Source: Chitinivibrionales bacterium (lineage in GTDB: Bacteria > Fibrobacterota > Chitinivibrionia > Chitinivibrionales > WJKA01). Taken from it: a stretch of 64,000 nt of DNA. Numbering within the stretch: position 1 is the stretch's first letter; each line of letters opens with the position of its first letter. This document shows, in pieces, positions 7,792-63,676 of this stretch. The stretch is from assembly GCA_014728215.1 (NCBI GenBank), contig WJLZ01000004.1, positions 1-64,000 of the forward strand, given 5' to 3'. Under the pieces are notes generated by a model. It saw only the letters and a list, made by a program, of their open reading frames with translations, searched no databases and was not told the origin of the DNA. The translations under genes were made by a program, and so were the position numbers.

Positions 7792-9039
7792 TCAGAGTGC
7801 AGAATACACATTTAAAACTTTTTCTTTTATCCGGGGCATCGTCGACGCCAAACGGGCCTGAAAATCGTCTTTGTGTGAATGTAATGATATGATCGATTCG
7901 ATTATTTGTTCACCGGTATTGCGTTTTAAATCGATAACCAGATCTTCCATGGATATGCTCCGGTAGACTCCCTTGAACTTGTCGCTGTAGGCCAGGCCCA
8001 CCGCGGGGATCTGTTGTGAAAGAGAACCGATACAGGCATGCATGCGGGAACCGATAAAAAAATCGCATTTACTGATGAAATATTTGATTTCATGCTGATC
8101 GTAATCCGGTGGTATCAGAACGGTATTCTCCCGCAGGGAAGAGGGAAGGCTGTTGTAGATATTTTCTGCAGCCTTGTAATCGTCTTCAACCGACTGGACC
8201 ACGCCCATGACATGGGAAATGATCAGCATTTTATGGTTGAGTGTCGATATACTCAGCTCGATTATGCGGTGTATAAGCGACCGGTAATCATCCTTGAGCC
8301 CGAACATGTTTTTTCCGGTATACCCGCCGATAAAAAGAAGTCCGCTTATATTCAAACCGATACAGGGACCATGTTCGGGAAGGGGCGGTATGGCAGGGGG
8401 TTTGTGCATTTCGAGAATAAAGGCCATGTCATTACAGAAAGTAAATTTATTTTCGACATGGTCTTCGGGAAATACGCTCCGCAGCCAGGTATAGCCGATC
8501 ATGTCTCTGACAAAGACCCTGGATGATCGTTTAAGGATGAATTTTCCCAGGTACCGGGCAAAAATGCCGGAAAAGGGGCCGATTGTCTGGGGCGCCAGAA
8601 TAAGCTTTTTGTTGTACAAAAGCGCCGGCAGTTGCGGAGCGGCAATATAGATCAATCGTTTGATACCGTAGATATCGCTGAAACTGTCGCCACCGGCAAG
8701 GGAAACAACAAAATCGGCTTCGTGAAGGGCGCTGGCGACAGCTCCTTTGGGGGGTCGTTTGGTATGAAACAGTAACCGGTCCAATATTGCCCGGGCGGTT
8801 ACGCGGATCAGGTTGTTGCGCAAAGCGAGGTTTTTTGACAGGCGAAGATGGATAAGGGGGACGGTCCGGGTCTTTCCCGACAGGGCGATTGAGTGGCACG
8901 CATCGCTGTCTTCATAATCCATGACCGTTATTTCGATGTCCGGCCGGGCATGGTCGAGACACTGGATACAACTGGTTGTCAGTGCCCGTATGCCCATGTT
9001 GCGGGCCTGAAGACTGCCGCCTGTTATAACCGCTTTCAC
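7792..9039 (-). CDS. Polysaccharide pyruvyl transferase family protein
   Basis: A 415-residue protein of the CsaB/WcaK family, which adds ketal pyruvate to sugars from phosphoenolpyruvate. The N-terminus MKAVITGGSLQARNMGIRAL is the family's opening glycine/asparagine loop, slightly divergent from the usual G-N-x-G-D. Also visible are VVSLAGGDSFSD near residue 130, ILAPQTIGPF near 165, SRVFVRD near 195, and a C-terminal FFIGSRMHACIGSLSQQIPAVGLAYSDKFKG that typifies the PS_pyruv_trans domain. The start is GTG, overlapping the stop of the preceding polymerase gene in a GTGA arrangement, so translation is probably coupled. Confidence 0.87.
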   Translation of the reverse strand: MKAVITGGSLQARNMGIRALTTSCIQCLDHARPDIEITVMDYEDSDACHSIALSGKTRTVPLIHLRLSKNLALRNNLIRVTARAILDRLLFHTKRPPKGAVASALHEADFVVSLAGGDSFSDIYGIKRLIYIAAPQLPALLYNKKLILAPQTIGPFSGIFARYLGKFILKRSSRVFVRDMIGYTWLRSVFPEDHVENKFTFCNDMAFILEMHKPPAIPPLPEHGPCIGLNISGLLFIGGYTGKNMFGLKDDYRSLIHRIIELSISTLNHKMLIISHVMGVVQSVEDDYKAAENIYNSLPSSLRENTVLIPPDYDQHEIKYFISKCDFFIGSRMHACIGSLSQQIPAVGLAYSDKFKGVYRSISMEDLVIDLKRNTGEQIIESIISLHSHKDDFQARLASTMPRIKEKVLNVYSAL

Positions 9040-16257: not shown

Positions 16258-17790
16258 TTACGGGTAGGCTTTCTGCTTTTTACGAATAACCATCCCTTTT
16301 GCCACGTCAAAGATCTCGACAAGGGGCCGGATGCTTCCGTGCAGAACTATCACCGACAGCAGGTAGAGGAGAATGAATACTGTGCTTGCCATGAGGATTC
16401 GAACAGGTAAAGCAGCAGCGCTGTATGGTCGGGCAATAAAATCTACCATTTTCAGTACAAACCAGGCACCGGGGCCTGCCAGAAGGCAGGCGGCAAAATA
16501 GTGCCATATCGATTTCAGTATAAGTCGAATTCCTATATTCATGGGGCGGCCGGCGTAGAGAATGCCCGGGATTACAAGGATATAAAATGTTATGGAATAG
16601 GCGGCCGCCACGCCGATCGCGCCGTAGGGAAGGCCGATAAGGAAACCGGCAAGGGTAATTACCAGGGCAACAAGTGTCCACCGAACCCATTTATGCGGTG
16701 TTCCCAATGAAAGATGAAGCCACCCGTGGGTGCTGTAGACAAGCATGATTCCGGTCGCCGGGCTCAGGACCGAAAAAATTACGCCTGTTTTATCCCACTG
16801 AGGTCCAAGCAGAAGAAGAATAATATCTATGGCATTGAGAGTCAGCAGTCCGCTGATCAACATCCCGAAAAAGGCGAGAAGGGAAATGGCTTTGCAGTAG
16901 TAATTAATAAATCGTTTTGGTTCTTCACGGAGCCTGCTCAATGCTGCAATCGCGACACTGGTCAGGGGTGCTGTCATCTGGCTTGCGGGCATGACAAAAA
17001 GGTGATATGCCCTGTCGTAAAATCCCAGTGCCAGCGGTCCGTGGAACCGGCCGATAAGGATCTTATCGAGATTTCGTGAAAAATAGTAGACACTGAAATT
17101 AGTAAAGGTATTGATTGCAAATCTGAGCATGTGCCCGACCTCTTTTAACCCGGCGGGCACCGAGGGTCTCCAGCTGCAGGTGATCCAGGCGCCGATAAGG
17201 ACGATTAAGGAGAGGCTGACCTGGCGAACAACGATTGCCCAGTAACCCAGGTTGAGCAGGGCAAAGCCGATTGCCAGCGTGATACTGACAAACATGGCAA
17301 TGATTTCGATTATGGCGACTGTGCCGAATTGCATGGTCCGTTTCAAGAGCGCAAGATGCTGGGTCGAGAGGCCCGAAAATATAAATCCGCAGGCAAAGGC
17401 CATGCTTATTCCCACAAGGCGTGGTTCATCATAAAAACGGGCAAGAAGCGGCGAGAGAAGGACAAAACCACCGGCAAGGAGTATACTGACAGAACTTCCG
17501 ATCCAGAATAACGTACTCACCTGTCCGTGGGACAAATGCTTTTCCTGAATAACCGCTTCGGTAAATCCGTTCAATCCTACATTATGGAGCAGATAACTGA
17601 ATGCGGTTACCATGCTCACGATTCCGAAATCCCGGGGAACTAAAAGCCGCGCCAGGACAATGGTCGCAAACATGTGCAGGAACAGGGCAAAGCCCCTACT
17701 CATGATAGTCGCACCGGCGCCACGAATCGTCTTGTGCTTCAATTCGGACTTGAGCCGGTTTTCATCAAAGTAATGAGTGTTTTGTGACAT
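16258..17790 (-). CDS. Polysaccharide flippase (WzxC-like), copy B
   Basis: A 510-residue membrane protein of the MOP/PST family with about 14 hydrophobic helices. Its N-terminal signature IRGAGATIMSRGFALFLHMFATIVLARLLVPRDFGIVSMVTAF is the WzxC/polysaccharide-exporter pattern. It would translocate lipid-linked oligosaccharide across the inner membrane. It lies 95 bp after a beta-helix gene. It differs clearly from the 455-residue flippase at 6397-7764, so it is not a recent duplicate. Two flippases in one locus suggest two polymers or a composite locus. Confidence 0.88.
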   Translation of the reverse strand: MSQNTHYFDENRLKSELKHKTIRGAGATIMSRGFALFLHMFATIVLARLLVPRDFGIVSMVTAFSYLLHNVGLNGFTEAVIQEKHLSHGQVSTLFWIGSSVSILLAGGFVLLSPLLARFYDEPRLVGISMAFACGFIFSGLSTQHLALLKRTMQFGTVAIIEIIAMFVSITLAIGFALLNLGYWAIVVRQVSLSLIVLIGAWITCSWRPSVPAGLKEVGHMLRFAINTFTNFSVYYFSRNLDKILIGRFHGPLALGFYDRAYHLFVMPASQMTAPLTSVAIAALSRLREEPKRFINYYCKAISLLAFFGMLISGLLTLNAIDIILLLLGPQWDKTGVIFSVLSPATGIMLVYSTHGWLHLSLGTPHKWVRWTLVALVITLAGFLIGLPYGAIGVAAAYSITFYILVIPGILYAGRPMNIGIRLILKSIWHYFAACLLAGPGAWFVLKMVDFIARPYSAAALPVRILMASTVFILLYLLSVIVLHGSIRPLVEIFDVAKGMVIRKKQKAYP

Positions 17791-19305: not shown

Positions 19306-20742
19306 TCATGAACTCGAAAATGTTTGCTCAGCTTTTTCCTCATTGTCGGCGGAGTAATCCTCGAAGTAGCCGTTTTCAAGTAAAAGCGTATCTTCGGTTT
19401 CGGCCCATGTGCCGTATAAAGGATCCATCGCGGAGACCATCAGAAACATGAACCAGAGCATGCCCAGTGTTCCACCACTGGGAATACTCGCTTCGGTAAT
19501 ATTACTCACAATAAAGATGAAAAAAATCGCCATCCTGAATCCACCAAGATGAACATCGTATTTGATTTCCCGTGACGACCGCCGGTAGGCATCGATAAGA
19601 ATTATACCGACGACGCCTACTCCGATAAGGCCGAGATTGAGGTAGGTTTCGATATAGCCGTTGTGGGCCTGTTTTGGAAGCCACCAGTATTTTTCCCAGA
19701 AAAATTCAATGCGCTCGCCGAGCCAGAAATTGCCGAATCCATAGCCGATGAACCGATTGTTCGGGAATGAGAGGGTCTCGTCCCACAGAACAGTTCTTCC
19801 GGTGAGTGTCATGTCCCGTCCAAGAAAAGAAACGAGCAGCGTTTTCAGATCAAACATCATTTGTCCCGCAAGAAAGAGGAGAAGCATGGTTGCTATATAC
19901 GCGCCGATGAATCCGGTATGATTGGCGATAAGAGGAACTTTCATCACTAAAATAATGGCCACACCAAGAAACAGGCATACAAGCGAGGTGGCACTCTGGG
20001 TAATGACCAGGAGCCAGAAAGAGATAAGCGCAAGGAGCCCGAAGGCGAAGAGTTCCCGCTTTCGCTTCCGTCCCGGAGGATCGTTCAGGACCGCAAGAAA
20101 CTCCCAGAAAAAATAGAGGCAGCAGATCATGCTCAGTATACCCAGACTGTTTTTCTGCGTTGTGACCCCATGATAATCGGTCGTGCCGCTCGGCCCCCAT
20201 CCTCTTCCCAGTTGAGGAAAATACTTGATAAATACCAAGGAGAGGGGGATGAGAAGGTATCCGCACCACCGGATCATCGCCTTGATTGCCGCAAAAGGAT
20301 CGGTTTCCGAAAGAACGATTAAAATCATGAGCAATGAACCCCCTACCTTGACAAACCGTTTGAGCGCAACAACCGGAAACTCCGCCCAGACAATGCTTGC
20401 AAAGGCAAAGGCATAAAAGAGAAGGGGCGGCCAGTTCCTTTTGAGAAGGTTGAATATCCTTCCGGAGCGAAACATGACTATTATCAATCCAAACAGAATG
20501 AGAAGGAGATAGATGTTGCGGTCTAACGAACTTCCTTCAGACAAGGCGGTGGCATAGTCCAGAACTTCATCGCCGGCCGACTGGGGGTGAATCCACCGGG
20601 AAACTTCCCGGGAGGCGATTATCAGAAACCAGAGTTGCGGCACAATCATTTGCCACGACAACTCCTCGCCCCGAAGCTTCTCGCCGTGGAAAAGCCAGGT
20701 GATAAAGAGAAGAACTATGAGTAACGCTAACGTTGGCGCCAT
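19306..20742 (-). CDS. O-antigen ligase/polymerase-like membrane protein, copy B
   Basis: A 478-residue polytopic protein of the O-antigen ligase (Wzy_C) superfamily with about 11 hydrophobic helices. The segment WAEFPVVALKRFVKVGGSLLMILIVL and the periplasmic loop LGRGWGPSGTTDYHGVTTQKNSLGILSMI are typical of the group found in exopolysaccharide loci. Near residues 330-370 is GYGFGNFW...AHNGYIETYLNLG, with the conserved His-Asn loop of the Wzy_C domain. The last 35 residues are acidic and cytoplasmic. It lies 135 bp downstream of the asparagine-synthetase-like gene. It has little resemblance to copy A at 9036-10337. Confidence 0.84.
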   Translation of the reverse strand: MAPTLALLIVLLFITWLFHGEKLRGEELSWQMIVPQLWFLIIASREVSRWIHPQSAGDEVLDYATALSEGSSLDRNIYLLLILFGLIIVMFRSGRIFNLLKRNWPPLLFYAFAFASIVWAEFPVVALKRFVKVGGSLLMILIVLSETDPFAAIKAMIRWCGYLLIPLSLVFIKYFPQLGRGWGPSGTTDYHGVTTQKNSLGILSMICCLYFFWEFLAVLNDPPGRKRKRELFAFGLLALISFWLLVITQSATSLVCLFLGVAIILVMKVPLIANHTGFIGAYIATMLLLFLAGQMMFDLKTLLVSFLGRDMTLTGRTVLWDETLSFPNNRFIGYGFGNFWLGERIEFFWEKYWWLPKQAHNGYIETYLNLGLIGVGVVGIILIDAYRRSSREIKYDVHLGGFRMAIFFIFIVSNITEASIPSGGTLGMLWFMFLMVSAMDPLYGTWAETEDTLLLENGYFEDYSADNEEKAEQTFSSS

Positions 20743-25110: not shown

Positions 25111-26427
25111 TCACCACGAAATTCCATAATAATTGCCGTTACATTCGGCTGGTTTGTTGATGATTCGTACCAGGTCGATAATGGTGTGATTGTTATGGAT
25201 TTGTGAAAGTGCTCCCCGGAATTCTTCTTCATTGTTACCGATAACGACAACATCACTCGCGGCGATAAGATCTTCACAGTTTTTGCACATCAGCCGGGAG
25301 ATATGGGGTATCTGTTTTTCGATATACTCCTTGTTGGCGCCCATCAGACGGGCGATTGAGACATTTTTATCGTAGATACGGATAGAAAATCCCTTGCCGA
25401 TGAGTGTTTCGATCACTTCTACCAACGGGCTTTCCCGAAGGTCATCGGTGCCGCCTTTGAAACTGAGTCCCATGAAACCGATTGTTTTACCGCGGTATTC
25501 CAGCAGTTTGCTGATTACCCGGGTGATTTGCTGATGATTGCTGGTGAGTATGGAACTCATCATGGGGACTTCCAGATCCAGAATTTTCGATTCATAGGTG
25601 ATGGCCCTCAGATCTTTGGGAAGGCACGATCCGCCGAAGGCAAATCCCGGTTTGAGATAGGCCGGTGAAATATTGAGCTTGTGATCCCGGCAAAAGATAT
25701 CCATGACTTCATGGCTGTCGACGCCAAGCATCTTGCAGATACTGCCGATCTCATTGGCAAAGCATATCTTGAGTGCGTGAAAACAATTGTCGACATACTT
25801 GACCATCTCTGCCGTTTTGATATTCGTGTGGACAATCGGGGCATCGATACCGGTATATATCTCCTGAAGTAATTCTCCCGACCGGCTGTCGATTTCACCG
25901 ATCACCGTTGTGGGCGGACTGAAAAAGTCTTTTACCGAGGTCCCTTCACGGAGAAATTCGGGATTCATGCAGACCCCGAAATGCTCGCCAGCCTTTTTCC
26001 CCGAAACCGTCTCGATGGTTGGAATAACCAACTCGTCAACGGTCCCCGGCAAGACCGTACTCCGCACTACGACGTCAAAGTAGTCGTTGCGATTCCGCAG
26101 GACAGCACCGATTTGTTCGGAGACACGGCGGATAAATGCTTTGTCGAGACTGCCGTTGCTCCGGCTGGGTGTGCCGACACATATCATTCCTACATCCGAT
26201 TGATCCATCGCTTCCCGAACATCGAGTGTGGCCGAATATTGGTTATTGCGGATTACATCGGCAATAAGAGTGTCGATGCCCTGTTCAACAACCGGGCTTT
26301 TTCCATTATTTATCATTTCTGTTTTTAAGGGATTGGTATCAACGCCAATTATATGGTGGCCTAGTTTCGCCAGGCAGGCGCCCGATACACATCCAACATA
26401 TCCTAATCCAAATACACATATGCGCAT
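25111..26427 (-). CDS. GDP-mannose 6-dehydrogenase-like (AlgD family) nucleotide-sugar dehydrogenase
   Basis: A 438-residue NAD-dependent dehydrogenase that oxidises a nucleotide sugar to the uronate in two steps. It has the Rossmann motif GLGYVGCVSGACLAKLGH (residues 7-24), VRSTVLPGT near 122, MNPEFLREGTSVKDF near 154, and the catalytic Cys268 in GFAFGGSCLPKD. The numbering and this motif coincide with AlgD of Pseudomonas (436 residues, Cys268), so GDP-mannose is the likeliest substrate. UDP-glucose dehydrogenases share the fold and remain an alternative. It is followed in the operon by the (alpha/alpha)-barrel gene and preceded within 23 bp by a GT4 gene. Confidence 0.85.
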   Translation of the reverse strand: MRICVFGLGYVGCVSGACLAKLGHHIIGVDTNPLKTEMINNGKSPVVEQGIDTLIADVIRNNQYSATLDVREAMDQSDVGMICVGTPSRSNGSLDKAFIRRVSEQIGAVLRNRNDYFDVVVRSTVLPGTVDELVIPTIETVSGKKAGEHFGVCMNPEFLREGTSVKDFFSPPTTVIGEIDSRSGELLQEIYTGIDAPIVHTNIKTAEMVKYVDNCFHALKICFANEIGSICKMLGVDSHEVMDIFCRDHKLNISPAYLKPGFAFGGSCLPKDLRAITYESKILDLEVPMMSSILTSNHQQITRVISKLLEYRGKTIGFMGLSFKGGTDDLRESPLVEVIETLIGKGFSIRIYDKNVSIARLMGANKEYIEKQIPHISRLMCKNCEDLIAASDVVVIGNNEEEFRGALSQIHNNHTIIDLVRIINKPAECNGNYYGISW

Positions 26428-26450: not shown

Positions 26451-27545
26451 TTACTGAACAATTTCCGGTTTTCCGGGTACAACCGATTCTACACAGTGAT
26501 AAAAGGAGCTGTACATATTGTCAATGGATGCTTCCTTGAGAAGGTCTTCTCGGGCATTTTGTCCGAGTTTCTCACGAAGTTCTTTGTTTTCGAGTAAGAG
26601 AATAAGCCGTTTTCTCAGCGCCGCAATATCGTTTTCGGCAACGACAAACCCATTGCGGCCGTCAACAAGGTAATGAAACTCCGGCGGCTGTTTGCCCTCT
26701 TCGGTAACGACAGGCAGCCCCCAGTACATAGCCTGATTCAATCCAAGGCCCACATGGCCCGGAATACAGAAAATATCGGCCATGGCAAAAATTTTGCTGA
26801 TTGTGATGTTCGCCGGATCGTGGACTTCACCAAGATACTGTGTCGTGCGTGGATTCATGCTGCTTTGAAGCTCCTCCGAAAGTCCGCTTCCCACAATAAC
26901 AAGCCCGGCGCCGTAACAATTCAAATTCCGGAATACCTCGATAAGATGGGCAACTTTTTTCCGCCCGCCGTCAATGCCCATCCTGCCGGCAAATAAAACA
27001 ACCCGCTCAAAGGGAATACCAAGCTCCTGCTTAATCTGCTGCTTGCTTGCCATGATTGCAGGATAATCGTGGTAATTCACCGTATTGTTGGCGATAAATA
27101 CCTTGCCGGTATTATAATGCCCTACATACTTCATCTCATGGGATGAGTAGAGAATAAGTCGATCGCTCAGGGTGTGGATATAGTGAAAGGCCATGTTCCG
27201 GATCGGATTGTCAGCATCATCCAGATTAGCCCCCTTTGTCCAGTAGGCAAAGGGTATTCGCCCTAATTTAAGCCAATGCAGAAGGGGCCAGATTACCCGG
27301 TCTTTCAGGTGAAGAAAAACAATGACCGCATCGGGTTTGACAGCAGCGATTTCTCGGGTGCAGGCGCCGAAGCTGAGTGGTATCTCCTTCAGGTCGAACT
27401 GATGCGGGTTTTTGTTGGATGATTGCAGTTTGTTGGTCCGAACAAACAGCTCCCACCCGTCATTCCTGAATTTTTCGGTAAAATAGTTATATACCGATAC
27501 CCGGTAATGCATAACGGTATTTGACATGAGCAGTACTTTTTTCAT
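26451..27545 (-). CDS. GT4 family glycosyltransferase
   Basis: A 364-residue GT-B fold enzyme. I use the ATG at 27545, preceded by GAAGGA, rather than the frame's longer opening to 27647 that runs into the upstream gene. The N-terminal domain starts MKKVLLMSNTVMHYRVSVY. The C-terminal domain has VVLFAGRMGIDGGRKKVAHLIEVF and the donor-binding CIPGHVGLGLNQAMYWGLPVVT. Glu/Gly spacing is similar to the retaining GT4 E-x7-E region but degenerate. It lies between a GT2 gene and the AlgD-like gene. The sugar specificity is unknown. Confidence 0.84.
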   Translation of the reverse strand: MKKVLLMSNTVMHYRVSVYNYFTEKFRNDGWELFVRTNKLQSSNKNPHQFDLKEIPLSFGACTREIAAVKPDAVIVFLHLKDRVIWPLLHWLKLGRIPFAYWTKGANLDDADNPIRNMAFHYIHTLSDRLILYSSHEMKYVGHYNTGKVFIANNTVNYHDYPAIMASKQQIKQELGIPFERVVLFAGRMGIDGGRKKVAHLIEVFRNLNCYGAGLVIVGSGLSEELQSSMNPRTTQYLGEVHDPANITISKIFAMADIFCIPGHVGLGLNQAMYWGLPVVTEEGKQPPEFHYLVDGRNGFVVAENDIAALRKRLILLLENKELREKLGQNAREDLLKEASIDNMYSSFYHCVESVVPGKPEIVQ

Positions 27546-27580
27546 GGTGTTTATTCCTTCGCTGATATTTCCGATATCTT

Positions 27581-28489
27581 TTAATAGTTCCGTACACGTA
27601 TGGGCGGAAGCCCGGCCAGGGCCATCAGCTTGCCGGCATGATCGCAAAACCTTATAAGGATGCGCATGAAATGAGCGTGTGACATGAGAAGCAACGCCGG
27701 AAGCGTTACCGAATAGATACCCACTGCCGCAATCGACCGGGCAATGCCTTTGAGCGAATATCTTTCCCGCCGGGCAACAACGACTCCCCTGAGTAACGCT
27801 CGTTTCAGAAGGTATTTCCGGGTCATGCGCGCCGGGGGGACCGATTCAAATACCGGGGTATCATTACACCAGACCAGAACGCACCCCCGGGCCAGCATTC
27901 TTCGAAAAAACTCAACATCCTCGCCGCCGCTTAAGCCATACCGGGGATTAAACCGCTCGTTGTTTGCAAAGACACTCCGGCTTATGAACGCATTACCGGT
28001 ATAGGTGGCTCGAGTATTGGTAATTATTGTCCCGGTCGGATAGCTGGGGCGTTCCAGCAGCTTGCCTTTCACTATCCATCGGGGAGGTTTCTGTTCAAAA
28101 TGGGGTTTTGCCGGTCCGAATACCGCATCGGCTGAATACTGGCGGCAAACCAAGAACATGCGGATCAGCCATTTTGGCTCCGGATACTCGTCATCATCGA
28201 TAAAAGCGACATAATCACTCTCCGACTCATCGATACACCGGTTCCGAGTCAGGGCAATATTTTTTTGGGGTTGCCATTCGTATCTGACCGGTACCGGCAT
28301 CGTCTTTGAGAACCGTTTAACAAGGGGGAAAGCGCTCTGCCTGCTGTCGTTGTCGGTGATTATTATCGAATAAGTGAAAAGATTATTGGTTTCGATCGCC
28401 CGCATTTTCTCCAACAGACGGGTTAAAAGCACATTCCGCCGGTAGGTGCATATGCAGACTGCGATCGTTGGTAATTTCGATTTCAGCAT
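27581..28489 (-). CDS. GT2 family glycosyltransferase
   Basis: A 302-residue GT-A fold transferase. TIAVCICTYRRNVLLTRLLEKM is at the N-terminus, IITDNDSRQ near residue 45, the acidic metal-binding AFIDDDEYPEPKWL near 95, and GGEDVEFFRRMLARGC near 190. The C-terminal hydrophobic segment (VGIYSVTLPALLLMSHAHF) suggests membrane association. It is 35 bp upstream of the next GT4 gene and 55 bp downstream of another, so all three are probably co-transcribed. Confidence 0.86.
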   Translation of the reverse strand: MLKSKLPTIAVCICTYRRNVLLTRLLEKMRAIETNNLFTYSIIITDNDSRQSAFPLVKRFSKTMPVPVRYEWQPQKNIALTRNRCIDESESDYVAFIDDDEYPEPKWLIRMFLVCRQYSADAVFGPAKPHFEQKPPRWIVKGKLLERPSYPTGTIITNTRATYTGNAFISRSVFANNERFNPRYGLSGGEDVEFFRRMLARGCVLVWCNDTPVFESVPPARMTRKYLLKRALLRGVVVARRERYSLKGIARSIAAVGIYSVTLPALLLMSHAHFMRILIRFCDHAGKLMALAGLPPIRVRNY

Positions 28490-28544: not shown

Positions 28545-29744
28545 TCAGCTTGACGACTTCTTCATTTGCCGGGTCGTGGCTGGTGACGACAACAGTTGCC
28601 GGATAATATCCAGGTAGAGATGTTTTTTGGTATCCCAGCAATTGCGGATAATGAATTCACCGCTCTGCCGCACATATCTGATCCGTATGTCGGGATTATC
28701 ATAGAGGAGCTTGATCGCCTCTGCAAGCTCATATTCATTGCCCGATTCATAATATTTTACCAGGGTGTCCGGTATGTAATAGCGGTGTACCAGGGTGTCG
28801 GATACCACAAGGGGAACACCAACCATCATGAACTCGAATATTTTTGTACTGAATGCTTCGTTGGAAAATGCGTTCTTGAGTTTTGGCTCTATCCCCAGAT
28901 CAGCATCGGCCATTATCAAAGGTATCTGCTCCAGTGCCACCGATCCTTTCATAACAACCCTGTCTTCCAGTTTCAGATCGGAGATAAGATTTCTGAAATA
29001 GTTTTCATCGGTACCCTCGCCATAAATATGAAATTCCAGATTTGGAATGTGGTCCCGGAGAAGATTGACTGCTCTTATCGCCGTTTCGATACCCTGGTGT
29101 TTGCTGAGCGAGCCGGGGTAGACGGCAACAAATTTTCCATCCTCCCGTGTCTGTCCTGTTTCGGTGAAGATATCGGAAACCGGATAGTTCATAATCGCCG
29201 TACACTTGTCGGAACGGATCGATCGATTGATCAGTTTTTCCCGCCATATATTATTGGCAATGATCACATGATCTGAAAAGGCGGTTGAAAAGCGTTCTGC
29301 AAGGATAAGCATTCGGAACAGAATTGAATCCTGGGTTGCACCGAATTTACTGAGAAATAGTTCGGGCACAATGTCGTGAATGTCCAGTATTACTTTTGTT
29401 CCCAGAACCTTTGGAATGATCGCTGCAAAAACTTCAAAATCGGGAATGGAATGGACATGAATCAGATGATACCGTTTCTTTATTCCCCGGGCGGCCAGCA
29501 CAGAGGCCGAAAGGATCAGAAATCTCAGCATACGGACAAAATATCTGAGTTTTCCTTTTTCGTTGGTTTTCCGCTCCTGGATTCTGATTACCTTGACGCC
29601 TCTGATCATTTCGAATGTTGGCTGTCCGGTGGCCTTCAATGTTATCGCCTCCACTTCCCAGCCCTCTTTTACCAGGGTCTCGGCATAGCGTCGGACGCGA
29701 TTGTCCCAGTCGTAATGTGTATATGCTACCATACATGCTTTCAT
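28545..29744 (-). CDS. GT4 family glycosyltransferase
   Basis: A 399-residue GT-B enzyme. The start chosen is the ATG at 29744 with AAAGGA six bases before it; the frame continues upstream to 29786 without support. Visible are YTHYDWDNRVRRYAETLVKEGW at the N-terminus, HVHSIPDFEVFAAI near residue 105, KVILDIHDIVPELFLSKFG near 130, and FVAVYPGSLSKHQGIETAIRA near 215. It ends with the donor-binding GIEPKLKNAFSNEAFSTKIFEFMMVGVPLVVSD. It is the first gene of the 3-glycosyltransferase run. A 358-bp gap separates it from the aminotransferase gene. Confidence 0.86.
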   Translation of the reverse strand: MKACMVAYTHYDWDNRVRRYAETLVKEGWEVEAITLKATGQPTFEMIRGVKVIRIQERKTNEKGKLRYFVRMLRFLILSASVLAARGIKKRYHLIHVHSIPDFEVFAAIIPKVLGTKVILDIHDIVPELFLSKFGATQDSILFRMLILAERFSTAFSDHVIIANNIWREKLINRSIRSDKCTAIMNYPVSDIFTETGQTREDGKFVAVYPGSLSKHQGIETAIRAVNLLRDHIPNLEFHIYGEGTDENYFRNLISDLKLEDRVVMKGSVALEQIPLIMADADLGIEPKLKNAFSNEAFSTKIFEFMMVGVPLVVSDTLVHRYYIPDTLVKYYESGNEYELAEAIKLLYDNPDIRIRYVRQSGEFIIRNCWDTKKHLYLDIIRQLLSSPATTRQMKKSSS

Positions 29745-30102
29745 GAGTGAGTCCTTTACTGTTTGAGGGTTGGGCGGGTGGTCCAATCAACCACAGAAAT
29801 ACTACCGTTCAAAAGTGAATGAGTATCTGCACCACAGATATAACAAGCTGAGTAATCATTGGTGAGTTAACTTTTCGTTACAACCTGCAGAGCTGAGAGA
29901 ATAGTAATTTTCTTTATGGGTAGTGCAGTGAAGAATTCGGCGAATGTGCCGTACAAGCTGATCCCGATTTTTCGGGATCAGTTGATCGGATAGGTCTGAA
30001 ATTCAGAGAAAGGTCAGGAAACGGCGCCCGCTCTCCGGGGGCTGAAGAATCGGTGTTGTGCCGTTGAGAGTTGTCGCTTTGTCCCGTATTGACGGGATCG
30101 AT
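29745..30102. other. Gene-free region with two small inverted repeats
   Basis: About 360 bp between the aminotransferase gene and the glycosyltransferase run. CTGATCCCGA (29958-29967) and TCGGGATCAG (29972-29981) form a perfect 10-bp stem with a TTTT loop. TCCCGT/ACGGGA (about 30082-30097) forms a second, related hairpin right after the aminotransferase stop. Neither is followed by a T-run. I see no clear promoter for the downstream GT4 gene and no sigma-54-type element here. Confidence 0.5.
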
Positions 30103-31275
30103 TTATTGATTTTGTGTTACTTCCACAACGCTCTCGATCTGTGCTTTGGTCAGACCGGGAAACATGGGAAGAGAAATTATCTCTTTTGCCGTTAGTTCGG
30201 TTACGGGAAGACTTCCTTCGGAATAATACAGATTGCTGTAGGCTTTCTGTAAGTGGAGTGGTATGGGATAGTGGAGCCCTGAACCGATACCATTATCGGC
30301 AAGAATTTTCTGCAGGCTGTCTCTGTCTTTCACCCGGATAATATAGAGATGATACACCGGTTGGGCCCATTCGGGGGTAAAAGGCGTAATGACGGCATTA
30401 TTTCCCTTAAGGAGTTTAGTATATGTTGCTGCAGCTTCGACACGCTGTTGGTTCCATTCAGGAAGCTTTTTGAGTTTTATGCCTAAAAAGCCGGCCTGAA
30501 TTGCATCGAGCCTGCCGTTGTAGCCTTCCATACCGTGAATATATTTCTGCGACTGGCCGTGATCTTTGAGCATACGGCATGCATGGGCAATATCATCGTT
30601 GTTGGTGGTGATGGCGCCGCCTTCGCCCAGGGCGCCGAGATTTTTGCCCGGGTAAAAACTGAATGCAGCGGCATGACCGATCGAGCCGCATTGCTGCCAG
30701 GCCTGGGCCTTCCGTGAGTAATACTGCGCTCCATGAGCCTGACACGCATCTTCGAGAACAAAAAGATTGTATCGTGAGGCCAGTTCCATTATCGGATCCA
30801 TGTCAGCTGGCTGACCGTACAGATGAACAGGGATAATCGCCGACACCTGTTTGCCCGATTCTTTTTCGATAGTTATTCCGTTGTCGTCGAGCGCGCATTC
30901 GCTTTCGAGATACTTCCGCAGATTCTCGGGCGCCATATTATAGGTCTTCTCATCGATATCGACAAAACGGATTTCTGCACCCGCCTGCGAAATCGCTTCG
31001 GTCGTGGCGATAAACGTATTGGGCACGGTAACAACAATATCACCTTTCCCCACGCCCATTGCAATCAGAGCAAATCTGAGCGCACAGGTTCCACTCGATA
31101 CGCCAATACAATGCTGTGCACCGGCAAATCGGGCAAAATTCTCTTCAAAACTCAAAAGTCGCGGACCACCGATAAACCGGGCAGTACCCAGAGCTTCTTT
31201 AAATACTTCGGTGAGTTCCTGTTCCAACTCTTTGTGAGGGGTTACCAAATCAAGAAAGGGGACGTTGTTTGGCAT
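30103..31275 (-). CDS. DegT/DnrJ/EryC1/StrS-type sugar aminotransferase (WbpE-like)
   Basis: A 390-residue PLP-dependent aminotransferase that converts a keto-sugar nucleotide to an amino sugar. PLP lysine is Lys211 in AAFSFYPGKNLGALGEGGA. Other family marks are GVSSGTCALRFAL near residue 58, VPNTFIATTEAISQAGA near 84, and LEDACQAHGA near 174. It follows the acetyltransferase gene by 43 bp. With the oxidoreductase gene at the head of the trio, this matches the WbpB/WbpE/WbpD set that makes the 3-acetamido group of diacetamido-uronic acids. FdtB/QdtB-type roles are an alternative. Confidence 0.86.
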   Translation of the reverse strand: MPNNVPFLDLVTPHKELEQELTEVFKEALGTARFIGGPRLLSFEENFARFAGAQHCIGVSSGTCALRFALIAMGVGKGDIVVTVPNTFIATTEAISQAGAEIRFVDIDEKTYNMAPENLRKYLESECALDDNGITIEKESGKQVSAIIPVHLYGQPADMDPIMELASRYNLFVLEDACQAHGAQYYSRKAQAWQQCGSIGHAAAFSFYPGKNLGALGEGGAITTNNDDIAHACRMLKDHGQSQKYIHGMEGYNGRLDAIQAGFLGIKLKKLPEWNQQRVEAAATYTKLLKGNNAVITPFTPEWAQPVYHLYIIRVKDRDSLQKILADNGIGSGLHYPIPLHLQKAYSNLYYSEGSLPVTELTAKEIISLPMFPGLTKAQIESVVEVTQNQ

Positions 31276-31318: not shown

Positions 31319-31804
31319 TTATACTGCTTTTTCCGAAAGGGTCCTTAATACCTTTGCCGGATTCCCTGCTACCACTGTATTGGCTGGAACATCTTTGGTA
31401 ACAACGCTTCCGGCACCGACAATAGCGTTTTCGCCGATTGTTACACCACAGATAATCGTGGCATTGGAACCGATCGATGCCCGCCGTTGTATGGTGGTGG
31501 TAATCACTTCCCAGTCATCTTCGGTCTGCAATGAACCGTCGGGGTTGGCCGATCGGGGGTATTTATCATTGGTAAACATTACACCATGACCGATAAAGGC
31601 ATAGTCTTCAATAATAACACCTTCGCAAATGAACGTATGACTCTGAATCTTACACTGTTTGCCGATCGATGCGTTTTTCTGAATTTCCACAAAAGCACCG
31701 ATTTTGGTACTCTCGCCGATAGAACAGCCGTACATGTTGATAAATTTCGAGAGTCTTACATTCTCTCCCAGTTGGACATCGGGGGCGATTGAATTAAGTT
31801 CCAT
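31319..31804 (-). CDS. Sugar-nucleotide N-acetyltransferase (WbpD/WlbB-like)
   Basis: A 161-residue left-handed beta-helix acetyltransferase. I use the ATG at 31804 (CGGAG six bases upstream) rather than an earlier in-frame start. The sequence shows hexad turns throughout ([31 protein letters not shown]). [14 protein letters not shown] near 95-105 is characteristic of WbpD/WlbB and related sugar N-acetyltransferases. It closes with [26 protein letters not shown]. It presumably acetylates the amino group made by the neighbouring aminotransferase. Confidence 0.86.
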
Positions 31805-31863
31805 ATATGCTCCGTTTTTATTCCAGCCGTACAATGAATCGATTTGAGGGAATCGGGGTCTTT

Positions 31864-32865
31864 TTACAGTTTAATGAGCTTTCCGTCACTCTTGAGTGAT
31901 TCATTGCACGCTTCAAGCATTCTCACAACCTGCATTCCGGCATGGCCATCGTTAACCGGTTTCTTTTTGTTTGCTATGCAATCGACAAAATACATCGCTT
32001 CCTGTTTCAGCGCTTCCGTGGGATTTACCTTGGGCGCATGAACGTCGCCGATCCGATAGGATACGAGCAGATCATACATTCCTTCCTTGGAGTCGACCGA
32101 AATGCCCTTATCGTAGATTTTCAGTTTTTCGTCGGGATCGACATCGTTCCATACAAGCATTTTTTTCTCACCGCCGATAAGCGTGTTGCGCATTTTGACG
32201 GGAGAAAGCCAGTTAACCGTAAAGTGTGCAATGAGATTGGAGTTGAAATAGACGGTAATATAGGCGATGTTTTCAAATTCGGAAACATGTGCCTTGCCGG
32301 TGGCAACGATGGCGGTTGGACTCTCGGGTATGATATAATTCATGATCGAGAAGTCGTGGGGAGCAAGGTCCCATACAACGTTGATATCATGCTGGAACAA
32401 ACCGAGGTTGACCCGGGTAGAATCGTAATAATAAACATTGCCCAGCTCGTCGCCGTCAACAATGCCTTTGATCTTCTGTACTGCGCCGGTGAACAGGAAG
32501 GTGTGATCGACCATGATCGTCAATCCCTTCTGTTCCGCAAGATTGATTAGTTCTTCGGCTTGCCGTGACGTTGCGGTAAAGGGTTTTTCCACAAAAATAT
32601 GTTTCCCGTTTTCAAGGGCCAGTTTGGCCAGCTCGAAATGGGTCGATACCGGTGTAATTACGGCAACGGCATCCGTCTCTTTTGATTTAATGACATCCGT
32701 ATAGTCGGTTGTTGTGGTAATGTTTGGATATACTTTTTTCACTTTGTTGAGCGTCTGAGGGTTTTTGTCGCACACCGAAGTAACAGTACAGCTGTCAAGG
32801 CTATTGAAATTCCGAACAATGTTCGGCCCCCAGTATCCATAGCCGATAACCCCTAATGTAAGCAT
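31864..32865 (-). CDS. Gfo/Idh/MocA-family sugar-nucleotide oxidoreductase (WbpB/WlbA-like)
   Basis: A 333-residue NAD-dependent dehydrogenase. It has the Rossmann signature [16 protein letters not shown] at the start, [29 protein letters not shown] near residues 75-100 (the EKP catalytic lysine), and [13 protein letters not shown] near 170. In WbpB/WlbA this enzyme oxidises C3 of UDP-GlcNAcA before transamination. I start it at the ATG at 32865 with AGGAG six bases upstream; a TTG two codons earlier has no room for a ribosome-binding site. It is the first gene of a three-gene transcript with a long leader carrying a sigma-54-type promoter. Confidence 0.85.
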
Positions 32866-33072
32866 CTCCAACTCCTTTTTTAAGTATATAAGATTCGGAA
32901 TTTAATATAATATAATAAGAGCGGTAAAAAGACACGGAAAAACGTGTGTTTTTAATTTTATTTTCCGATTTTCGCTTTTCAAATTTCGAAATTGAAAATG
33001 ATTCAAGGATTGTGAGTTTCGCATTTTTAATTTATTACGATATTATTTCGAATTTCGGGTTTTCCCCTGGAT
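32866..33072. repeat. Leader region with heptamer repeats
   Basis: This is AT-rich leader upstream of the oxidoreductase gene. Heptad runs lie at 32963-32997 (five degenerate units, including TTTCGCT, TTTCAAA, TTTCGAA) and 33046-33059 (TTTCGAA, TTTCGGG). No open frame is credible. Confidence 0.45.
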
Positions 33073-33506: not shown

Positions 33507-34721
33507 CTAGTAGGCGCCCTTGGAGGCAATAACGGCCAGAGGGGTTTTAATGATCAGTTTCAGATCCAAAAGGATCGACCATTTGTTAATATATTCGATA
33601 TCCATTCGAGCCTGGCCTTCGAAAGTGGTCGCACTTCTTCCTTCAACCTGCCAGATACAGGTGATGCCGGGTTTTGTCTGAAGAACCCGTCGTTTGTGCC
33701 ATGTATCGTATTCTTCGACTTCATAGGGGATCGCCGGTCGAGGTCCGACAAGTGACATGTTGCCCCAGAATACATTGAAAAACTGCGGAAGTTCATCAAG
33801 GCTTGTTTTCCGGAGCCATCTGCCGATCGGTGTTACCCGCGGGTCGTCTTTGATTTTGAAGACACCATCCGCACCGACCTCTTTATTGTTTTTGATAAGC
33901 TTTTTCATGTATTCTTTATGAGCCGAATCATCATTGTTCGGCCGCATGGTACGGAACTTGATTACCTTGAAAGGCTTTCCTCCCAAACCCGCACGCTCCT
34001 GCATGAAAAATACCGGCCCCTTGGAGGTCAGCTTGATAATGATCGGGATAACAATGAACAAGGGTGAAAAAATCAGTATCGCAACCAGACTTCCTGCAAT
34101 ATCGATGACCCGTTTCATTCCCGATGAGGTATTTTTACCGATATCCTTGTAAGCATCGGTATAAAAAAGACCATCAATCGGACGAGTTCCCCCTTGGGTG
34201 GGAAACATGAAACAGGAGATATTGATCAATTCTATTTGACGTTCATCGAGTTCGGTCATCAGGCACGAACGAACTTTATCGATCATCACTTTTTCGTTGG
34301 TACCGGTTGTTTCGGTATATAAAAGGCCGATTACCTGGTTTTTCTTATACCAGCCCTTTATATCGGTTTCCCGTGATGCTCCATCCAGAAGAGTAACGAT
34401 TCGTCCAACGCAGAGTATATCCGCCATCTTATCGAGCGGGTCTTTGCCTTTGTGCTCCGATACAAGACCCCGAATATCGAGCATCATAAGCATAAACTGC
34501 TTCCGGGTCCGTTCGCTTCGTTTGCGCTCCAGGGTCAGCATCTCATGGAAATAATGCTCGCTGTACAAATGAAGATCATCATCCAAAACACGGTTCATCT
34601 TAGTGGTCCTGCTTGAAGAATGGTTGGTAATTCCGGGCAATTTGAACCCCAGACGGGTATTGCTTGAATGCTGAGTAACCTTGTTTGAAGATGTCTTCTG
34701 AGATTTGCTCAATCGTAACAT
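33507..34721 (-). CDS. Priming sugar-phosphate transferase with a degenerate GGDEF-like N-terminal domain
   Basis: A 404-residue protein that would start repeat-unit synthesis by moving a sugar phosphate onto undecaprenyl phosphate. The C-terminal half (about 205-404) is a bacterial sugar transferase domain: [20 protein letters not shown], then [20 protein letters not shown], and [23 protein letters not shown]. Instead of the usual membrane helices, the N-terminal part contains [20 protein letters not shown] and [11 protein letters not shown], the opening pattern of a GGDEF domain, but without a GGDEF motif. I use the ATG at 34721 after GGAGG; a TTG one codon earlier is possible. It is monocistronic, between its own sigma-54-type promoter and a terminator. 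Confidence 0.82.
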
Positions 34722-35200: not shown

Positions 35201-35539
35201 ATGGCACTGAATATAAAAATATCCGAGTTTAACGGTTATCCGCTTATCGACCTTATCGGTAAAATTACCGATACTGATGCACGCAACCTCTCACACGAAC
35301 TTCATGCACTCAACAAGATGAAAACCGAGAGGATTCTTATTAATATTACCCGGGTCCTCTTTATCGACAGCCATGGCCTGGGAGTAATCGTCTATTTCAG
35401 TTCGTTGCTCGAAAAAGAGGAACGGAAACTGGTCATAATCAATGCAAACAGAAATCCATCCGCCTATATTAACCGATTGTTCGAAATGACCAATCTCAAC
35501 AGAATGCTGACTATCGTAGGAGCCGGAGAAGTCGATTAA
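35201..35539 (+). CDS. STAS-domain anti-sigma factor antagonist
   Basis: A 112-residue stand-alone STAS domain of SpoIIAA type. It has the conserved phosphorylation loop FIDSHGLGVIVYFSSL with the probable phospho-acceptor Ser57. Such proteins release sigma factors or other partners by binding an anti-sigma kinase. No kinase, phosphatase or sigma gene is in the window, so the partner is unknown. The STAS protein SypA controls polysaccharide production in Vibrio, and here the gene is divergent from the priming transferase of a polysaccharide locus. It has its own promoter. Confidence 0.82.
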   Translation: MALNIKISEFNGYPLIDLIGKITDTDARNLSHELHALNKMKTERILINITRVLFIDSHGLGVIVYFSSLLEKEERKLVIINANRNPSAYINRLFEMTNLNRMLTIVGAGEVD

Positions 35540-37447: not shown

Positions 37448-37756
37448 CTACTCGTCGAGAGTGTCGACAATGGTAAATATTTTGCTCAGCTTTACCGTAT
37501 CTAAAATTTCCCGGAGAAGAGGGTCGGGACGGTAAAAGATGAGCGTTTTGCCTTCAGAGGTGATTTTGCGATGAAAGGTGATAAACATCCTGAGCCCGTA
37601 GGAGTCGCATAAACGCACATTCTCAAGATCGAAAATTATCGTGGAAGGATCCTTTGATTCGATATTGGAGGAAATAACCGCCGACAGATTGTCGGTGTTG
37701 CCGATATAGACTTTCTCTCCGAATTTATAAAGAAACCTGTCTTCGTTATCGCTCAT
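37448..37756 (-). CDS. STAS-domain protein (anti-anti-sigma-like)
   Basis: A 102-residue STAS domain. The phosphorylation loop reads LENVRLCDSYGLRMFITF with probable Ser52. Only distant similarity to the STAS protein at 35201-35539 is visible. It starts the short transcript ahead of pabBC. It is a candidate partner-switch component, with kinase and target unknown. Confidence 0.76.
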   Translation of the reverse strand: MSDNEDRFLYKFGEKVYIGNTDNLSAVISSNIESKDPSTIIFDLENVRLCDSYGLRMFITFHRKITSEGKTLIFYRPDPLLREILDTVKLSKIFTIVDTLDE

Positions 37757-58383: not shown

Positions 58384-59364
58384 GTGTTTATTGATGAAAC
58401 GGTAATTTCAGTAAAGGCCGGTGACGGTGGTAATGGGTGTTTTGCCTACCTGCGGGAAAAATACCGTCCAAAGGGCCCTCCCAGCGGAGGAAATGGTGGA
58501 CGTGGTGGACATATCTATATCCAGGGATCCCGCCAGCTCCATACGCTTCAGGATGCCGCCTACCGGAAATCGTATAAAGCCGAACGAGGTCAGCATGGGA
58601 AAGGTTCAAATAAGTACGGCAAGGATGGAAAAAGTATATACATCCATGTGCCACTCGGTACGCTGGTTATGGACAAGAAAACAGATGAAATTCTGTATGA
58701 TTGCACCGATGACCGCGAGGCATATATTGTTGCCCGGGGAGGCAGGGGAGGACGAGGAAATGCTTCACTGGCAACCTCACGAAATCGCACGCCCGAACGT
58801 TCCGAACCCGGAAAGCCGGGAGGACAAAAAGAACTTCGTCTTGTTTTAAAAGTACTTGCCGATGTCGGCCTGGTCGGACGGCCCAATGCCGGGAAATCGA
58901 CCATGCTCTCGAAAGTCTCTCGCGCCCATCCGAAAATCGCCGACTATCCTTTTACTACCACCCAACCCCATCTGGGAATCGTCAAATCGGCCGATACGTA
59001 CACTTCCTTTGTTATTGCGGATATTCCGGGACTGGTTGAAGGCGCTCATGAAGGAAAGGGGATGGGACATCGATTTCTGCGCCATATTGAGCGAACGAAA
59101 GTACTGGCTATTCTGGTGGAATCTCTTGCCGAATCGCCGGAGGAAGATGCCCGTGTTCTTATTGATGAGCTTTCTCGTTACAGTCCGATCCTTGCTTCCA
59201 AACCGAAGTGTCATATTTTGACCAAATGCGATCTGCTGCCGCCTGAAGAACGGGCAACGATACCTGATGGATGGCTGGGAATTTCTTCAGCGACCGGCGA
59301 GGGCCTGCAGGAAGCTCTTCATACCTTCGAAAAAATGCTCTCTTCTCTGGAACCCGAAGACTAG
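58384..59364 (+). CDS. obgE: GTPase Obg/CgtA
   Basis: A 326-residue ribosome-associated GTPase involved in large-subunit assembly and stress response. The Gly-rich Obg domain is at 1-155 (AGDGGNGCFAYLREKYRPKG, GGNGGRGGHIY). The G domain has G1 GRPNAGKSTMLSKV near 165, G3 DIPGLVEGAHEGKGMG near 212, and G4 TKCD near 280. The start is GTG at 58384. It lacks the C-terminal extension seen in some species. Its stop overlaps the end of the convergent C25 peptidase gene by four bases. Confidence 0.93.
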   Translation: MFIDETVISVKAGDGGNGCFAYLREKYRPKGPPSGGNGGRGGHIYIQGSRQLHTLQDAAYRKSYKAERGQHGKGSNKYGKDGKSIYIHVPLGTLVMDKKTDEILYDCTDDREAYIVARGGRGGRGNASLATSRNRTPERSEPGKPGGQKELRLVLKVLADVGLVGRPNAGKSTMLSKVSRAHPKIADYPFTTTQPHLGIVKSADTYTSFVIADIPGLVEGAHEGKGMGHRFLRHIERTKVLAILVESLAESPEEDARVLIDELSRYSPILASKPKCHILTKCDLLPPEERATIPDGWLGISSATGEGLQEALHTFEKMLSSLEPED

Positions 59365-62300
59365 GGGCTCCTCCGGGGCGGATGAATAACAAGCTTGTGA
59401 ACCTTGCTCTTCTCCTGATCAGTATGCATGTTCGTTGATTCTGCCGTTATCTGGTACAGATAAATATTTGGTCCCAGCGGCTTACCGTACTCATCGGTAC
59501 AGTTCCATTCAACGCCGTTGCGGGCGTTCCTGATTATCTTTATCAGCTTTCCCGAGAGGGTGTAGATTTTGATTGTTACAAAGACGCCGTCATTTTCTCT
59601 CCAGGGTCTTGAAGCAGCAGAAGTATAAAAATAGAAACGTGTCGTTTCGTTGGCCCGGATCGGATTGGGATAATTGAATACATGACCCAGATGGAATTCT
59701 TCCTCGGGCGCAACTTTAAAAGTGAATGTTTCATTGGTGCTGTTGCCTAAAAGGTCCCTGGCGCCTACCCTCAGCTCATATGCTCCGGATTCAACCTCGC
59801 CTTCTTCAAGACTCAACGAAGCAATCCCGGTCCGGTAGTCGCCTTCGCCAAACTGGAATTTATGATTGATATTCTGCTTGGGTTTTACGCCGGGGATCTC
59901 GATAGTCAAACCCTCATCCGGCGCCGAGCCCACAACATCGACACCGCTTTCATCATGGAGCTCGATCTGGAGTTCGACGGGCAGCGATGCAATAATTTCA
60001 TTTGCAAAGGTTGCGGATGTGTTGCGATTAATATCGTGGTAAACCGGACGAACCGAAATTCGGGGACCTGCCGAATCGGATATAATCGAATCGATTACCG
60101 TTCCCTTGAATATAAAGGTGCCGTCATGGCCGATACCCGCTTCTTCACCATGCCATGCATAGGCGATTAACCTGGCTCCCGGTGTATTGAATGTCATTCG
60201 GCGGGGAAGTAAAATGCTTTGTTCGAATGTGCCGTTTACTACCGGAGTTTTTCCGCTGAAAAGCGGAGTGCCGGGAAGTGTGTAATCGACATCTTCGGGC
60301 AGCTTGTCTTTCCGTTTTGCTTTTTCGGGCGGGTTGTACAATCCGAGGTGCACATAAGCTTTGTCATTTGCCGTTCCGAAGTGAGCGTTGTGAAGATTGG
60401 TGGAATGGTTTACAATTGTTCCCCTGACGGTAATTGTTTCCAGGGCCTGCAGGGTATCCTGTTTTTCGCTGATTATCTGAAGCTGAACTTCATTGGAAGG
60501 ATTGTAGAATTTGATGGAGGGGTCACCTAAAAGACAATAGGCTTTCTGTTCGGTATGATGCTTGTCCATGGCGCCCCTGAACGCTTCGCCGATACTCTGT
60601 CCGTGGGGGGGAGTAAAAAGAAACTCGTAAAAGCTTATGGCCATGCGCTTATTCGATTTTGCATAGGCAAGGCGTGTGCTTGCAATACCCACAATAGCAC
60701 CGGCTGAAGGAAGCGTGGTCAGGGCGGAGGAAAGGCAATCGTTGTCTGGTTTGTCAAACCGGCCGACCGAACAGGAAAATGATGTCACCAGACAATATCG
60801 CCTGTCATTATGGAAATTATCCAGGTTGTCGGTCGCAAGAATATGCTCATCGGCCCAGAGAATGTCTGAGCCGTGGCCGAAATAGTTCACACATGCAACA
60901 CCGCTGTTAACGGCGTTGGCCAGAGCCCGCGCGGCTTCAGGTTTTTCATACACTTCATCGAACTCATATTCAAAAAGATATAATTTGCGGATTTCCGTTG
61001 AAGGAAACCGGTTTTCGATAACCGCACTTACATCTTCGGAATGCGTATGATGTCCCATGCCGTCATATCCGTGCCCCTGGCGGTCATCGTCTGCTGCAAG
61101 GAGAACCCGATTTCTCCAGGCGCCGTAATCGGCCCGTGAGAGATCTTCCATATCTTTGATCTTTTCAACCAGAGTAAATGCCTGGGTTGGTGATGACGCC
61201 GGCAGGCGGCCAAGAAATATATCAGGCCTTCCACGCCACGTCTCATTGGAATCCAGGCAGGCAAAGAAATCTTCAACACACTTTTGTGTGGTACCGTTAC
61301 CAACTTGGGCGGTGGGAATATAGTTGGTTTCCCGGGCAGATACCTTTTTGTAATCGTAATGCCCCGATCCGAACAGAACAACATGATCGAGTGGACCCGA
61401 CCAGTACGACAGTACAAAGCCGATGAAATTACGCAATGCCGCAGGCTCAACACTTCCTCCGGAAAACTCCCGGTAAATATCGGTGGTCGATACTACTTTC
61501 GGAACATGGCTGGCATATACCGGATAGGATGCCTTGTGGCGGGCAAGCTCAACCGCCGCATCCATGAACTCCGGATGGGTGATTATCAGATAAGTAGCCG
61601 AATTACTCGCCCGGAGATTCGTGACTCGGTAGTTTGATGGTCCTGAAGGCGATACCGGCGTCGCTTCCGAAGGAAGCTGCTTCAACCCTGCATCGGTGCA
61701 ATAGTAATATTTAATCCCCGCACCGGCGGTATCGGTAAAACTCCATGATGTACTGCTTTCCTGTACCGGTAATACCCGGCTGATCTCGGTTTCGTCGGGA
61801 AGAACACGGAAAATGTGGAAATTCGTGGAGGCAGGGATTGTCAGACGATAGGTGACAAGACCTGTTGTATCCGAAGAAAATATAGTCATACCATCTGCGC
61901 CGGTCATATCGAGGGTTGTGGTGTACTCGATTTCCACCTGTTGAACATCAAAGTACGGGGCCGATGAACTCGAACGGAATGAAACGTTCAAAGGGATGGC
62001 GTCGGAATTAATTCCCCAGTTGGTTACCGGATACCACTGATTATTCTGACATCCGTAACTGTCCTCGCATATTTGTGTTTCTGCAAAACTGAGGGAAAAG
62101 GCACCGTTGAATACCGTGGAATATCCCGTAACCCGGATACGGCCTGAAAGGTGAGGGTTCAGGTTCGGTATCTGGACGCTCTCGCTGAGCGGGGAAAGCC
62201 CCGGTGCCAGACGTTTCCAGATACGGTCGAGACCGCCTTCCCATTCCTTTAAATGACCGCGCTCCACTAATGTGCGAAGATGGAGCGGCCGTTTGAAAAG

Positions 62301-63455: not shown

Positions 63456-63676
63456 AGGAATGTATAATTTCTCCAAAAAAATTAATAAAAATAAAATATA
63501 CCAGAGAGGGTACAAAACCCATACTACTTCAAATCTATATAATATACGATGTTTAGCAGAGGCTTATTTTTATATTTTCTTGAAAATGAGCTGATTTGTT
63601 TCAGTTTTTCGCAGCTATTATGACCAATATAAATACGGGCGTAAAAAAAAGAATATTTGAAAAAAGGGGGTTTTTC
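63456..63676. other. AT-rich upstream region of the C25 peptidase
   Basis: About 220 bp, very AT-rich, with A-tracts. No single promoter stands out. It also contains the 3' side of the metK transcript terminator. Confidence 0.4.

Follow-up and report, generated by a model that had tools for sequence, protein, structure and literature searches.

Control by cyclic di-GMP (c-di-GMP) is well characterised for synthase-dependent polysaccharides. How Wzx/Wzy pathways are controlled post-translationally is said to be understood only in part (PMC12802240). PelD of B. cereus controls a polysaccharide through a degenerate GGDEF domain, and replacement of its R363, D366 or R395 with alanine abolishes detectable c-di-GMP binding (PMC7112168). 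BcsE also combines a degenerate GGDEF domain with an I-site in a polysaccharide system (PMC8461298). In WspR, c-di-GMP is held by R242 and by R198, the latter coming from another GGDEF domain (PMC2270323). Among the phosphoglycosyl transferases (PGTs), EpsZ of Myxococcus xanthus has an activator, EpsW, which has been proposed to act by promoting PGT dimerisation, and the same paper mentions, citing a survey, fusions of small PGTs to regulatory and receiver domains (PMC12802240).

The protein analysed here, encoded in a window of 64 kb (the whole stretch of DNA under analysis), joins a GGDEF-like domain to a PGT domain. Its residues R117, D120, K149 and R71 align with R242, D245, K273 and R198 of WspR; WspR and PleD are active cyclases, whereas the catalytic residues have been lost in the fusion. 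With PelD it shares a dead GGDEF domain that has kept the RxxD and a third basic residue, together with a link to a polysaccharide (PMC7112168, PMC8461298), and the distance between the aspartate and the basic residue is 29 residues in both (D366-R395 in PelD, D120-K149 in the fusion). However, PelD is a separate subunit of transmembrane (TM)-GAF-GGDEF architecture in a synthase-dependent system, and the fusion domain sits, without GAF or TM parts, on the putative initiating enzyme of a Wzx/Wzy-type system. With no TM segment, no GAF domain detected by Pfam and an operon of other sugar genes, the protein falls outside the PelD family proper. What it does have, namely GGDEF homology, loss of the A-site and an I-site with a third basic residue, places it with receptors of the PelD/BcsE/PopA kind. 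BcsE differs in that it is soluble and forms a subunit of its own in cellulose synthase complexes.

The catalytic domain is common to the fusion, the large PGTs WbaP, WcaJ and EpsZ and the small PGT PglC, but the large enzymes carry a TM bundle and a cytoplasmic DUF, instead of which the fusion has its GGDEF-like domain. The proposed arrangement resembles that of EpsW and EpsZ in that a signal would control the initiating PGT post-translationally; there the control is exerted in trans by a phosphorylated response regulator, whereas here it would be exerted in cis by a cyclic-dinucleotide domain. Degenerate GGDEF receptors and PGTs are already known separately. In the literature searched, which covered few subscription journals, no account of a GGDEF-PGT fusion turned up.

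The fusion gene, its transferase domain and its operon

The earlier note had placed a priming sugar transferase at positions 33507-34721. These coordinates are correct and the open reading frame is real; it lies on the minus strand (Table 1), the plus strand of the same interval containing several stops. The ATG at 34721, from which residues are numbered, has a GGAGG 8 nt upstream, and a TTG lies one codon earlier. The identity as a priming transferase was confirmed by the match of the C-terminal half to PF02397 (E 3.4e-66), and this domain also matches the solved structures of WbaP (30us, E 2e-46) and PglC (8e37, E 2e-30). From established knowledge of PGTs, we take D309-E310 to be the catalytic dyad. 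A membrane helix begins at residue 211 (Kyte-Doolittle value of 2.84 in a 19-residue window). The fusion protein is a monotopic phosphoglycosyl transferase with a DE dyad and a membrane helix.

No TM helix was found before residue 203 (maximum of 1.0 in the same 19-residue scan), which separates the protein from the large PGTs of the WbaP/WcaJ type. The statement that priming transferases usually have TM helices ahead of the catalytic domain holds for the large PGTs, which have a TM bundle, but the small ones have none. The full-length PGT models of NCBIfam match the fusion protein through its C-terminal half only. Three canonical large PGTs examined in the same genome are open frames of 486-488 amino acids, from which the fusion differs in architecture. 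Another locus of this genome (L005, G000:C107) has a small PGT domain and a polysaccharide dehydratase/epimerase-like protein in what is apparently one open frame.

The fusion is the first gene of a conserved operon (PGT, Gfo/Idh oxidoreductase, hexapeptide acetyltransferase and DegT aminotransferase), and this order is repeated in most of the relatives with enough contig. The UDP-sugar dehydrogenase, the flippases, the Wzy_C protein and the pyruvyl transferase encoded in the window point to a Wzx/Wzy-type pathway, the sugar of which is probably a diacetamido-uronic acid, judging from a WbpA/B/D/E-like gene set. An Rfam scan of the 64-kb window revealed no riboswitch or other RNA. Divergently from the fusion gene, and upstream of it, lies a gene for a STAS-domain protein (35201-35539, plus strand), whose place is conserved in a sister genome (L106, 5322-5888); a second STAS protein is encoded at 37448-37756 (minus strand). 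A large protein at 59361-63515 (minus strand) contains a C25 (gingipain-type) peptidase domain with a propeptide.

Table 1. Features of the fusion gene and its surroundings in the window, with the stand-alone copies of the domain at other loci
Feature	Position	Strand	Remarks
GGDEF-like/PGT fusion gene, 404 aa	33507..34721	-	ATG at 34721 after GGAGG; intact fusions in relatives
Degenerate GGDEF domain, residues ~44-175	34197..34592	-	Family-profile match to cyclases; last helix not recognisable
Helix-1 E65-R66-K67-R68-S69-E70-R71	34509..34529	-	R71 = WspR R198, by alignment
I-site RxxD, R117-E-T-D120	34362..34373	-	R 41/41, D 41/41
K122-G-W-Y125, where RYGG(D/E)EF starts in cyclases	34347..34358	-	W 41/41
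K149, third I-site residue (= WspR K273)	34275..34277	-	K 37, R 4 of 41
Monotopic PGT domain, residues 203-398	33528..34115	-	PF02397 (Bac_transf), E 3.4e-66; KFRTM, VGPRP
Putative PGT catalytic dyad D309-E310 (TSLDELPQ)	33792..33797	-	Sequence motif
Gfo/Idh/MocA oxidoreductase, next downstream	31864..32871	-	Syntenic in most relatives
Hexapeptide-repeat acetyltransferase	31319..31834	-	Syntenic
DegT/DnrJ aminotransferase	30103..31275	-	Syntenic
Glycosyltransferases	GT4 28545-29786, GT2 27581-28489, GT4 26451-27647	-	
UDP-sugar dehydrogenase	25111-26427	-	
Wzy_C protein	19306-20742	-	
Wzx-type flippases (n=2)	6397-7764, 16258-17790	-	
Pyruvyl transferase	7792-9039	-	
Stand-alone copies	L083 9458-10174, 12525-13298; L085 3108-3596; L087 7313-7900; L088 8784-9278; L101 3783-4211		I-site kept, without PGT

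GGDEF ancestry, catalytic site and I-site of the N-terminal domain

As a single sequence, the N-terminal domain gave a weak match to PF00990, below the Pfam cut-off (E 0.057), and E values of 0.006-0.06 with the NCBIfam cyclase models. A profile built from 29 family members (A1) was compared by hhalign with a profile of eight true GGDEF domains from the same genome (A2), and the two aligned with a probability of 97.7%, an E value of 1.6e-12 and a score of 76.6. In the controls, 100 column shuffles scored 25.3 at most and the reversed profile 11.2. When A1 was searched against the PDB, diguanylate cyclases came out on top (3ign, E 2e-8; WspR entries, about 1e-5 to 2e-4). The GGDEF-fold opening that had been seen in this part of the protein is upheld by these results, and homology of the domain to GGDEF domains can be regarded as established by profile comparison. 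Scored with their own profile, even the lowest family members reach about 70 bits, while no true cyclase exceeds about 55, a gap that marks the members as a separate family within the GGDEF superfamily. The GGDEF fold seems to lack its C-terminal helix here. Single-sequence AlphaFold2 returned a pLDDT of 30 for the full-length protein and 42 for the domain alone, both too low for a reliable fold.

Searches recovered 41 members of this family (34 intact PGT fusions, one interrupted fusion and six stand-alone copies) in 23 of the 168 genomes of the phylum, a number reached after one true cyclase had been removed from each of two 24-genome listings. All 41 were aligned with eight cyclases of the same genome, 3ign and WspR, and most of them are only 23-37% identical to the domain in the window. 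The GG[DE]EF motif, reported as lacking in the window protein, is absent from every member. The position of WspR R249 is occupied by W throughout, ND and the GH loop are absent or variable, and the second metal Asp has been replaced, the first being present in 26 members. The GG(D/E)EF and the metal/GTP residues of an active diguanylate cyclase are not conserved, and the catalytic A-site is lost in the family.

While the earlier note had recognised the loss of GGDEF, it overlooked the I-site, on which the case really rests. A conserved pocket had been proposed as a check on the reading, and the RxxD, the third basic residue and the second-protomer residue equivalent to WspR R198 (R in 40 members, K in one) turned out to be better conserved than anything else in the domain. 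The RxxD has been kept although the adjoining A-site has decayed. It is common in active cyclases too (R in 7 and D in 8 of the nine compared), so that part of its presence in the family is inheritance. The position of WspR R195 is also R in all members except one, which has K; the helix-1 arginines could instead serve membrane or protein contacts. By its residues the domain has the signature of a degenerate-GGDEF receptor for c-di-GMP, bridging residue included, and since the A-site is gone, c-di-GMP in the I-site, and not GTP in the A-site, is the predicted ligand.

Proposed control of the transferase and the alternatives

We consider it likely, from the sequence features described above, that the fusion is a c-di-GMP-controlled initiating PGT at the start of a Wzx/Wzy polysaccharide, and the signal would probably switch synthesis at its very first step. 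The C-terminal domain would transfer a sugar-1-phosphate to undecaprenyl phosphate and thereby begin a repeat unit of the Wzx/Wzy type. The N-terminal domain would be the descendant of a diguanylate cyclase, with catalysis gone and the inhibitory site retained, and we would expect with some confidence that it binds c-di-GMP. The ligand, probably an intercalated dimer, would be held by one chain through R117, D120 and K149 and by a second through R71, as in PelD/BcsE, and would bridge two GGDEF-like domains; the chances for and against such bridging of chains seem evenly balanced. The bridge would stabilise a PGT dimer, and the enzyme would most likely be on at high c-di-GMP. EpsW is proposed to promote PGT dimerisation, and a regulatory domain that dimerises could therefore plausibly act as a switch; PGTs of the small type are active as monomers (PMC12802240), which makes control through a dimer uncertain. 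Given binding, analogy leans towards activation of the PGT. The fullest version, in which cross-bridging by c-di-GMP assembles the active PGT dimer, the stand-alone copies act as extra subunits or competitors and the family is a lineage-wide covalent receptor, is put forward tentatively, as we judge it somewhat more apt to fail than to hold.

The main alternative to activation is that c-di-GMP, once bound, inhibits the transferase as it does the cyclases, which would save undecaprenyl phosphate or allow a change from one polysaccharide to another. Binding at the I-site locks PleD and WspR in an inactive state (PMC2270323), and several further PGTs are encoded in the same genome. By analogy we nevertheless hold inhibition to be unlikely, because c-di-GMP binding by PelD is needed for biofilm formation (PMC7112168) and BcsE belongs to the cellulose secretion machinery (PMC8461298). 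It is rather improbable that nucleotide binding has been lost and that the domain is a structural module for dimerisation or partner docking, replacing the TM bundle and cytoplasmic domain of the large PGTs. Such a role would fit the large PGT WbaP, which is dimeric via its cytoplasmic domain (PMC12802240), and the remaining invariant residues (F, E, W, G) may belong to the fold or to an interface; the invariant charged residues, however, coincide with the c-di-GMP I-site and the second-protomer arginine, and the stand-alone copies retain the I-site residues as well. Purine nucleotides are bound by GGDEF folds, but recognition of another nucleotide (GTP, cGAMP or a UDP-sugar substrate) is very unlikely, given that no member has kept the A-site residues for GTP binding and the I-site pattern is of the c-di-GMP type. 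That the N-terminal part is no GGDEF domain and resembles one by chance, as the Pfam score of the single sequence below the cut-off (E about 0.05) might suggest, is contradicted by the profile searches and the shuffled controls and has next to no probability.

If c-di-GMP does control the fused PGT, a second messenger would gate a Wzx/Wzy pathway directly at its first committed step, and with a receptor inside the enzyme by which undecaprenyl phosphate is committed, one lineage would offer a simple, directly testable answer. The fusion would also be a compact system in which to study the switching of a monotopic membrane enzyme by a dinucleotide.

History of the family and its c-di-GMP context

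When 70 PGT domains were placed in a maximum-likelihood tree, the fused ones all grouped together (94/95 support) with the canonical ones outside, and for this sample a single fusion event is the best-fitting history. The clade includes one non-intact entry, the PGT of the interrupted copy. This second fusion copy (G032 C2; L084, 8560-8760, minus strand) changes frame in a stretch of about 11 A, where sequencing error, slippage or a true split may be at work. A frameshift or assembly error is likelier, and the pair was rejected as a natural two-gene version. One stand-alone copy (L088) is directly upstream of a fusion gene and another (L085) directly upstream of a diguanylate cyclase gene. The search for related loci in genome contigs returned relatives of the PGT domain only, and none in viral contigs or plasmids. 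A Verrucomicrobia genome (L007), considered as a holder of the family, contained only a true cyclase.

The genome that carries the window has 15 PF00990 (GGDEF) matches and nine PilZ matches. No EAL phosphodiesterase domain was found in it, and c-di-GMP breakdown there would have to rest on HD-GYP proteins. Because cyclases occur in 164 of the 168 genomes of the phylum, whether the fusion is present or absent, their co-occurrence with it says little. Four family members have a cyclase gene no more than about 2.5 kb away, against 0.46 expected, the distance having been chosen post hoc, which makes this proximity suggestive only as a link to c-di-GMP. In several genomes a gene of one response-regulator family, probably NtrC-like and with a product beginning LLLVEDDEAA..YERYL, is found near both fused and stand-alone copies (L083, L086, L089 and L101), with more distant cases in L095, L099, L117, L118 and L119.
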